Origin: a bacterium
GTDB lineage: Bacteria; SZUA-79; Acidulodesulfobacterales; Acidulodesulfobacteraceae
DNA: 33,227 bases
NCBI GenBank assembly: GCA_021806885.1
Contig: JAKAPT010000012.1
Span: 1 to 33,227, forward strand
Reading direction: 5' to 3'
Shown: one piece after another, positions 1-33,227 of the stretch
How positions within the stretch are numbered: the first letter of the stretch is position 1
How the letters are laid out: every line of letters starts with the position of its first letter
The notes under the pieces: model-generated
What the model saw: the letters and a program-made list of their open reading frames with translations, nothing else
What the model was told of the DNA's origin: nothing
Database searches by the model: none
Program-made: the position numbers and the translations under genes

Positions 1-30
1 AGAATTTTTAAGCCTGTAAATGCTTGCCAT
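1..30 (-). CDS. Tyrosine integrase, 5' end only (runs off window)
   Basis: Only the first ten codons are inside the window: an ATG at 30-28 reading MASIYRLKNS toward the left edge. I recognise it because it matches the start of the integrase at 32130 (MASVYKIKGS) at both DNA and protein level. Both genes also follow a tRNA gene with a similar leader of comparable length. Short starts of this kind are typical of phage and island tyrosine recombinases. Function (site-specific integration at the tRNA-fMet 3' end) is inferred from position and from the paralogue; the catalytic domain is outside the window, so it is unknown whether this copy is intact. Confidence 0.7.
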   Translation of the reverse strand, partial: MASIYRLKNS

Positions 31-167
31 TACTGTATTACCCCGTTTTGAAAAGTATAGTAATAGTATAGTAAAACAATGTCATTTCTATACATATTTA
101 TACATTTTTTTGCATACTTACGTCAAGAGGAAAATCCGAGGAAAGGCTTATTTATTGCGGTTTTAAT
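31..167 (-). promoter_or_regulatory. Integrase leader / element end next to tRNA-fMet
   Basis: AT-rich spacer between the tRNA-fMet 3' end and the partial integrase. The 46 bases next to the tRNA (122-167, minus strand) align without gaps, 36 of 46 identical, with the 46 bases after tRNA-Val(GAC) at 31991-32036. Both copies contain TAAAACCGCA and end in TCCTCTTGAC. The conserved TTGAC is a plausible -35 element, with TATAAA about 18 bases further on as -10. The remainder holds ACTATAC-type short repeats. No other gene is seen here. Confidence 0.6.
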
Positions 168-244
<77 letters not shown>

Positions 245-31914: not shown

Positions 31915-31990
<76 letters not shown>

Positions 31991-32129
31991 GATAAAACCG
32001 CAGTAAATAAGCCATTCTAAGCAATATCCTCTTGACATCGTTTTACATTGTTTAGTAAAACTTGCTATAGTTTTACATATTTTTTGCTATATATTTGCTA
32101 TAGTAAAATTTTAACGGAGGACTAACAAA
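31991..32129 (+). promoter_or_regulatory. Integrase leader with phased repeats
   Basis: The first 46 bases (to 32036) match the leader beside tRNA-fMet (36/46, no gaps). Then comes an inverted repeat GTTTTAC (32040-32046) / GTAAAAC (32055-32061). Three direct copies of TTGCTATA follow at 32062, 32084 and 32095, spaced 22 and 11 bases, that is, on one face of the helix. GGAGG precedes the integrase ATG. They may be arm-type or control sites of the integrase. Confidence 0.5.
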
Positions 32130-32735
32130 ATGGCAAGCGTTTACAAGATTAAAGGTTCTGATAATTGGTATTATTTAATTAGTTAAATGGACGGCATTAT
32201 CAAGGTTCGACTAAAACCAAAGACAAAAAGTCTGCCCAGCTTATAGCAGAATCTATCCAAACGGATATCGCGCGCGAAAAACATGACTTGCCTTCTCTTT
32301 TACCTATTGCACCGGAGCCAGACAAACTATTCCGGGACGTTTGGACGGAATATTACAATAGTTTACAAAATACCTATAATGCTATAAAAGTAAAGAATTA
32401 TATCTATACAAAGCATTTATCGCCTTATTTTGACAAATTAACTATAGCAAAAATTGCTATAGTAGATCTTAAAAATTATCAACGTTTACGCCGCCTTGAG
32501 ATTTTAAATATGCCTAAAAATCGCAATAAAAGAGAATCCGAAATATCTTTTGCTTTTTTAAATAAAGAAATATTGATATTACATAACTTTTTTAATTTTT
32601 GTATAGAAAAAGGCTATATCGATAAAAACCCTGCCTCCGGTATTAAGAAACTCAACGAGCTTTCCCGCATTAAAACTTTATCGGACGAAGATATCTTGAA
32701 ATTAATTAACGGATCTTCTAATAAACTAAGTACCC
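32130..32735 (+). pseudogene. Broken tyrosine integrase
   Basis: The ATG at 32130 reads MASVYKIKGSDNWYYLIS and stops at 32186. The natural continuation (NGRHYQGSTKTKDKKSAQLIAES...) is in the +2 frame, so a one-base loss or equivalent near 32175-32186 breaks the gene. The shifted frame runs through a SAM-like core-binding domain (DLKNYQRLRR..., FFNFCIEKGYIDKNPASG) to RIKTLSDEDILKLI. It leaves homology at about 32711-32735, where antisense HigB-like sequence begins. The whole catalytic domain (R-H-R-Y) is missing. It is a relative of the integrase at position 30. A 9-3-9 palindrome of TTGCTATAG lies inside it at 32442-32462. Confidence 0.82.
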
Positions 32736-32835
32736 AGACAATCTTTTGCGTAACCTTGCCGTCCAAAGAATCTAAAAAATCTTTTATCGGACATTTTCCT
32801 TCAGGTGTTTTATAAAAAATTACCGTTCTGAACAT
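32711..32835 (-). pseudogene. Truncated HigB/Gp49-like toxin gene
   Basis: About 41 codons of a RelE-superfamily HigB (Gp49/DUF891-type) toxin: MFRTVIFYKTPEGKCPIKDFLDSL...KIVWVLSLLED. After LLED the frame runs into the integrase sequence in antisense, so the toxin's C-terminal half and the usual downstream antitoxin gene are gone. The ATG has no ribosome site, but a TTGACA-17-TAACAT promoter lies just upstream, so the transcript would be nearly leaderless. Such a fragment should be inactive. Confidence 0.72.
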
Positions 32836-32869
32836 ATAATATGTTAACCTATATGTTTACTTTTGTCAA
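32831..32869 (-). promoter_or_regulatory. Promoter and palindromic operator of the toxin remnant
   Basis: TTGACA (32869-32864), 17 bases, TAACAT (32846-32841). A perfect palindrome AACATATAATATGTT (32831-32845) overlaps both the -10 and the start codon, and a further ATATGTT half lies at about 32851. This layout is usual for autoregulated toxin-antitoxin operons. Confidence 0.5.
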
Positions 32870-32948
32870 GATTTATTACCTTATATTTTCCCCATACTTC
32901 GTCAACCGCTTTCTTAAGAATATTCCATATAAAATTATTTTCCGCCAT
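32844..32948 (-). CDS. Small ORF (34 aa), unknown
   Basis: MAENNFIWNILKKAVDEVW... is an amphipathic, Lys-rich 34-aa peptide. Its ATG has AAGGAG four bases upstream and overlaps the 3' end of the preceding small gene, suggesting coupling. The toxin promoter lies inside it, and its stop coincides with that promoter's -10. It could be a real micropeptide or the remnant of a longer gene. I do not recognise it. Confidence 0.35.
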   Translation of the reverse strand: MAENNFIWNILKKAVDEVWGKYKVINLDKSKHIG

Positions 32949-33090
32949 TCTTCTCCTTCTCATACTCCCTTATAATCTTTAACGCCCTTTCGTATTCTTC
33001 TCTTTTTAAATCTTCGGGGCCTTCCTTGCCGAACGCCTTTTCTATTTCTTTTTTTAAAAAATTAAAGGTGTCGGAATTATTTATTCTCAT
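32935..33090 (-). CDS. Small charged helical protein, unknown
   Basis: The 51-aa frame begins MRINNSDTFNFLKKEIEKAF and ends in a Glu/Lys-rich helix. A TTG at 33138 would lengthen it to 67 aa, but that passes through a strong hairpin, so I prefer the ATG at 33090, although its GGGAG is only one base away. It precedes the 34-aa ORF and the toxin remnant on the same strand, so all three may come from one accessory element. No family is recognised. Confidence 0.4.
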   Translation of the reverse strand: MRINNSDTFNFLKKEIEKAFGKEGPEDLKREEYERALKIIREYEKEKNGGK

Positions 33091-33126
33091 ACTCCCGACT
33101 GCGTTTGACGCGGCCGGGAGTTTTTG
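33091..33126 (+). terminator. Rho-independent terminator
   Basis: ACTCCCGACTGCG pairs with CGCGGCCGGGAGT over 13 positions with one mismatch and one G-T pair, loop TTTGA, then TTTTTG. It would stop plus-strand transcripts coming from the broken integrase side. The rest of the right edge (33127-33227) shows no gene I can support. Confidence 0.65.
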
Positions 33127-33227
33127 TTTAACAGGCAATAAAAGCGGAAAGAGAAATGCGGAAGCAGTCGGTTAAACAAATAGGCAAATTAAAAGTTATC
33201 GGCATCGCAGGATAAAAATATACGGTA

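Follow-up and report, generated by a model that had tools for sequence, protein, structure and literature searches.

Probable attL sides of two related tRNA-targeting integrative elements at the edges of a contig from Candidatus Acidulodesulfobacterales

Evolution of integrases is described in the Islander paper as involving frequent target switching (PMC4383910), and the change of target by tyrosine integrases has been called poorly understood (PMC8371274). Close relatives among the suicidal integrases of pT26-2 type in Thermococcales target 14 tRNA genes, with the att site placed inside int and with switching that reportedly never crosses between tRNAs that have a long variable arm and those that lack one (PMC8371274). 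Tycheposons of Prochlorococcus and Methylophilaceae, cargo transposons of 4–200 kb, are described at 7 tRNA genes (PMC10872708). For intS of the KplE1 prophage, located at argW of E. coli, the int promoter overlaps the attL adjoining the tRNA gene, arm-type sites are present and IHF is involved (PMC2951348). Target switching and the use of many tRNA genes are already known (PMC4383910, PMC8371274), and the locus considered here is an unusually rich case. Here, we propose that each edge of the window is the attL side of an integrative element, that both elements belong to a single tRNA-targeting family, and that the attP of this family combines a fixed frame with an exchangeable address at a spacing set by the anticodon loop; the probability of this reading is estimated at about 0.88.

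The window, i.e., the whole stretch of 33,227 nucleotides that was analysed, is the entire contig G000:C14 of a genome of 1.38 Mb (82 contigs, 99.6% complete), and consequently the integrase on its left edge is truncated at codon 10 by the contig end (positions 1–30, minus strand, MASIYRLKNS). It is preceded by a leader at 31–167 (minus strand), which represents the P′ arm of attL of the fMet island and comprises a putative recombination block, AAAACCGCAATAAATAAGCC, at 145–164 with its CCGCA anchor 52 nt from the anticodon loop, a putative int promoter at 97–126 (TTGACG, 18 nt, TATAAA) and arm-type direct repeats TTTTACTATAC / ATTACTATAC at 55–76, all on the minus strand. Next to it lies tRNA-fMet(CAU) (168–244, minus strand, ARAGORN), whose 3′ half, from 168 to about 214, serves as att core. 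The segment between the island edges (317–31533) belongs to neither island and holds unremarkable core genes, among them those for complex I and RNase G as well as thiC and purC. On the right, tRNA-Val(GAC) (31915–31990, plus strand) is followed by the attL leader of the second island (31991–32130, plus strand), with the block at 31994–32013, the −35 element TTGACA at 32032–32037 and arm-like repeats TTGCTATA at 32062–32104, and then by an integrase gene starting with MASVYKIKGS at 32131 (plus strand). Both tRNAs, both start codons and the first residues are as given in the original prediction, and so is its central alignment: the 46 nt following both CCA ends match without gaps at 36 of 46 positions, including TAAAACCGCA and TCCTCTTGAC. 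Chance similarity of the two leaders was rejected, given P of about 1e-12 and a next best match elsewhere in the window of 29/46.

The proposal that these leaders mark two island edges held for the left side. An integrase frame anticipated beyond the contig end exists in the near-identical relatives L063 and L064, which share 97.6% identity over the 167 nt and encode complete integrases of about 370 aa. The direct repeat of the tRNA 3′ end was found on contig C72, where the far-end motif is followed by 47 nt of tRNA-fMet and then by host DNA, and where the TTACTATAC arm repeats are the same as those of the left leader. The right side is a remnant only. The start of its integrase is real, but the gene (32131–32742, plus strand) is a pseudogene that comprises N-terminal and core-binding domains, is frameshifted near 32183 and lacks the catalytic domain, similarity stopping near 32742, upstream of that domain; its nearest full-length relatives are the fMet-type integrases of L063/L064 (58%). 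The 3′ half of tRNA-Val(GAC), sought as a second copy across the assembly, occurs once, within the tRNA gene, so that the right island is a remnant or has its end unassembled. Neither an island end nor a gene was recognised in the stretch 3′ of the broken integrase (32743–33227); the rest of this island is unassembled or lost. The far-end motif is likewise absent from the whole window, therefore neither island ends inside it. In relatives, elements of 15.9 and 4.2 kb do have attR at tRNA-Val(GAC), the same tRNA species.

The suggestion that the 46-base leader should be sought beside other tRNAs proved productive. A leader model based on sequence only and covering both block and promoter, by which the leader loci were chosen, gave 303 matches in all 30 genomes of the family (own and 29 others), from 3 to 26 per genome, and among 31 genomes outside the family its best match (E 0.01) was at chance level. 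In the source genome five tRNA genes carry the leader, namely fMet, Val-GAC, Pro-CGG, Val-UAC and Gly-CCC, the last three each accompanied by an integrase of the same kind. By eye, decayed-looking leaders are seen at its Arg CCT, Phe, His, Asp and Arg TCT tRNAs, and a short leader match in contig C20 near tRNA-Cys was dismissed as not being a leader. An integrase search of named genomes returned 74 loci, 69 of high identity and 5 distant; the 69 come nearly all from acid-mine-type MAGs, including Ca. Acididesulfobacter diazotrophicus. As judged from these searches, the family of integrative elements appears to be special to Ca. Acidulodesulfobacterales. Assembly artefact was rejected as a source of the pattern, since genomes of few contigs (G001 and G003) carry the leader and G003 displays complete elements.

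Intact tRNAs bearing the leader belong to at least 21 species (23 labels, three being fMet variants): Ala CGC and GGC; Arg ACG, CCT and TCT; Asp; fMet; a second CAT tRNA; Gln CTG; Gly CCC; His; Lys CTT and TTT; Phe; Pro CGG, GGG and TGG; Thr CGT; and Val CAC, GAC and TAC. Two Leu species bear a shortened variant of the leader, and L246 has a His-clade-like leader at Val-GAC. The idea of a single integrase subfamily that retains its leader from one tRNA 3′ end to another therefore extends far beyond the two cases in the window: at least 39 changes of target label are needed in a carefully built integrase tree (67 sequences), with 20 as the possible minimum and 50 for shuffled labels. Since close integrase pairs have a common target, a target is apparently retained for some time along a lineage before it is switched. 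Even a single supported integrase clade includes His, Gln, Lys and Leu targets.

Complete elements give the anatomy of the family. They range from 1.4 to 16 kb and are bordered on each side by an exact copy of the tRNA 3′ half; an intact tRNA at one end and a tRNA 3′ fragment at the other are found for about 20 elements in relatives and for the fMet and Val-UAC islands of the source genome, the latter spanning from C53 to C15. The attL/attR repeats extend as far as CCA from a starting point either at the anticodon loop or at the 5′ side of its stem. Identity blocks begin at the anticodon loop or just 5′ of it, the copied core usually extending 3–8 nt 5′ of the loop, and the entire loop falls within the repeat in 42 of 52 cases, most exceptions being split or damaged cores. 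About 10 nt before the core the far end carries the conserved motif AATAAWATYAATAAGTTATAA, which fits the IHF consensus WATCAANNNNTTR perfectly in 11 of 51 cases against 0.7 expected in shuffles, a consensus match in AT-rich DNA; three genes of the HU/IHF family are present in the source genome. Between the two arms of one element 6.8 8-mers are shared, as against 1.33 when arms are paired across elements (0 of 5000 permutations), the repeated words being ACAAAAACGGATACAGG, TTTAGGC or TTACTATAC-like. Since the far-end arm repeats match the int-proximal ones of the same element, int and both ends travel together, and since DNA past the last attR is devoid of the leader, the latter belongs to the element. 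Tandem arrays also occur. A search for empty sites with the flank of a Pro-TGG element found in relatives a locus holding different insertions and no clean empty site, and the flank on C72, used as a query without core, gave distant flank matches only.

Some tRNA 3′ halves, often att cores, carry within the T-loop a hairpin-like insert of 20–45 nt (GACGAAGTCCAGCAT... or TACGGTTTAAAACTTCCC...) that splits them, as at L102, L116/L157, L132, L134, L149 and L084. Tandem repeats beginning in the tRNA T-loop were also noticed at L288:210–427 (tRNA-Tyr, C37), L302:108–320 (tRNA-Gln TTG, C52), L298 (tRNA-Asn, C11) and on the minus strand of L302 (tRNA-Ser TGA), with a period of 91–92 nt as measured at Tyr and Gln. 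Their unit consists of the last 17–18 nt of the tRNA, downstream flank and a common GATCACGACCG-AGGGAGTC piece, the Ser insert being different, and some contigs terminate in such repeats. They are reminiscent of the tyrT repeats of E. coli.

Each intact element encodes what is, by predicted structure, a lambda-Int-like tyrosine integrase with arm-binding N-domain, core-binding and catalytic domains. The catalytic domain PF00589 with the R...HxxR...H...Y signature is present in the integrases of C53 and C38, the N-domain is predicted as a three-stranded sheet with a helix, and the best PDB match of the predicted fold is full-length lambda integrase 1z1b (E 1e-11, 18–19% identity), in a model of moderate quality (pTM 0.50, the C-terminal part poorly predicted). 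This N-domain fold and the arm repeats on both sides of the core correspond to the heterobivalent lambda type, binding being a prediction. Membership among temperate phages was not borne out, with one IMG/VR match at 25% and phage records at no more than 30% identity. An HTH_17 protein positioned like an excisionase in 9 of 22 elements is a putative excisionase, and a further protein similar to tyrosine recombinases (family F2, with PF12835 or weak PF00589; for instance, L027:1203–2171, plus strand) is found in 7 of 22. Other cargo includes RepB-type primase or DUF3987 and Toprim proteins; relaxase-like and TrbL/VirB6 proteins accompany the Phe-tRNA group (L169/L172/L182), and these protein families are absent from the other complete elements. 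Some cargo resembles, by eye, DNA methyltransferases and nucleotidyltransferase/HEPN pairs.

The position of the block relative to the tRNA is informative with respect to its function. Of 95 non-Gln leaders, 92 have the CCGCA anchor at an offset of 7 nt from CCA, and of 14 Gln leaders 12 have it at 8 nt and none at 7 (Fisher 4e-15 versus non-Gln, related sequences being counted as independent); the 3′ half of tRNA-Gln is 1 nt shorter. The Gln label accounts for four changes on the tree, and the extra base varies between these cases. In the His clade a GG anchor is located 22 nt past CCA for His and 12 for Leu, whose 3′ half (55–56 nt) is 10–11 nt longer than that of His, so that the totals counted from the loop are 67 for His and 67 and 68 for Leu. 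For most tRNAs the block is spaced by 52 nt from the anticodon loop, with the offset corrected by +1 for Gln and about −10 for Leu. Because these offsets compensate the length of the 3′ half, the block is set by distance from the anticodon loop rather than from CCA, and such loop-measured spacing speaks for recombination rather than tRNA processing as its function. It is hard to reconcile with the view that the leader is a part of tRNA genes in this order, such as a 3′ processing signal or terminator, with integrases merely nearby. This view accounts for the 78 of 100 fetched leaders adjoining an intact tRNA within a few nt of its CCA end, but the other 22 adjoin a mere 3′ half, terminal attR copies are free of the leader, orthologous-looking Val-GAC genes in relatives lack it, and only 5 of the 35 tRNA genes of the source genome possess it intact. 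Being already contradicted by distribution and spacing, the tRNA-intrinsic explanation was rejected as extremely improbable.

Somewhat more credit, at a level that still makes it quite improbable, is given to the leader being no more than the promoter and 5′ region of int, retained through common descent. Of 97 leaders, 83 have TTGAC at a fixed position, followed after 16–18 nt by a −10-like box, and by these marks it is likely the −35 box of the int promoter. What such descent would leave unexplained is the behaviour of leaders lacking the gene. Presence of the leader at tRNAs without integrases had been named as an observation unfavourable to the prediction, and 38 of 89 testable leaders indeed have no integrase within 900 nt; they nevertheless keep the block equally well (17.1/18) with a weaker promoter (p 3e-6), and five of them belong to two-ended elements, so the idea is refined rather than refuted. 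The block and the promoter accordingly have separate functions, and the spacing was fitted to tRNA length at several independent Gln acquisitions, which also speaks against this view. Two-ended elements without full-length integrase (L105, L116, L141, L149 and L161; 1.4–6.5 kb) are candidates for mobilisation in trans. What had been regarded as the element's own leader is thus element-borne, as proposed, but composite, consisting of an att site and the int promoter.

The reading of the window edges as attL sides of one element family brings these data together. By sequence, one side of the attP frame consists of an IHF-like motif with arm repeats, and the other of the block, the int promoter, a further set of arm repeats and int itself. 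Between the two sides lies the address, a tRNA 3′ half reaching from the anticodon stem to CCA; this address has changed many times along the integrase tree at a constant block–loop distance whatever the tRNA. Strand exchange would take place in the 7-nt anticodon loop, as placed by the repeat boundaries, and integration would rebuild the tRNA, leaving the displaced 3′ half at the far end. IHF may bind the far-end motif and integrase the arm-type repeats, the constant block–loop distance may reflect intasome geometry, and after a target switch small insertions or deletions would restore the spacing.

How address swaps happen is a matter of inference. Within the preferred reading, two-step switching, in which off-target integration by mismatched exchange in the anticodon loop is followed by repair or selection installing the new core, is given slightly less than even chances. 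It agrees with the crossover suggested for the short loop and with the locus L080:499–3987 / L165, where, after a tRNA-Ala element, a tRNA-Lys 3′ half bears a leader of its own, a possible trace of a target switch or an array; yet the copied core usually includes 3–8 nt 5′ of the loop, which simple loop exchange would not carry. The broader proposition that elements re-address across tRNA classes by a recombinase-linked mechanism with a loop-measured address, and that integrase-less elements with the same frame are mobilised in trans by resident integrases, is doubtful and put forward tentatively. A shade less probable still is a scheme without switching by the recombinase, in which islands already resident with different tRNA cores swap these cores, or modules of int plus leader, through homologous recombination. 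Numerous copies per genome, tandem arrays and the conserved leader offer homology for such exchange, but matched arm repeats speak for joint movement of int and both ends, although core-only exchange or gene conversion stays compatible with them.

The value of the family for understanding target change lies in the fact that one narrow subfamily offers about 39 such changes, spread across at least 21 tRNA genes, together with the corresponding arms, cores and integrases; it is therefore testable what co-varies with the target, what stays fixed and how the spacing is corrected. The leader alone can also serve to map islands in uncultured acid-mine bacteria. With the anticodon-centred (site A) class of tRNA islands (Islander; Williams 2002) the elements share an apparently rebuilt target, a 3′ fragment at the far end, a crossover region that here would lie at the anticodon loop, and frequent switching; what differs is one narrow subfamily in one order using at least 21 tRNA species with constant two-sided att frames and length-corrected spacing. 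Lambda integrase is the best full-length fold match, at 18–19% identity only, and its attP likewise has arm sites and an IHF site, comparable to the IHF-like one here. To our knowledge, lambda attB is not a tRNA gene. KplE1 intS, likened by att layout and not by integrase sequence, resembles the family in the overlap of the int promoter with attL beside the tRNA, in its arm-type sites and in the involvement of IHF, which here would act at the IHF-like motif, but it belongs to a prophage with a single tRNA target. Tycheposons, compared by published description only, also combine a tyrosine recombinase, tRNA borders and cargo, and differ as cargo transposons of 4–200 kb. Unlike the pT26-2-type integrases, int lies here outside the core, and the mixture of His, Gln, Lys and Leu targets in one supported clade, i.e., a switch between short- and long-armed tRNAs, departs from the restriction described for the archaeal integrases.
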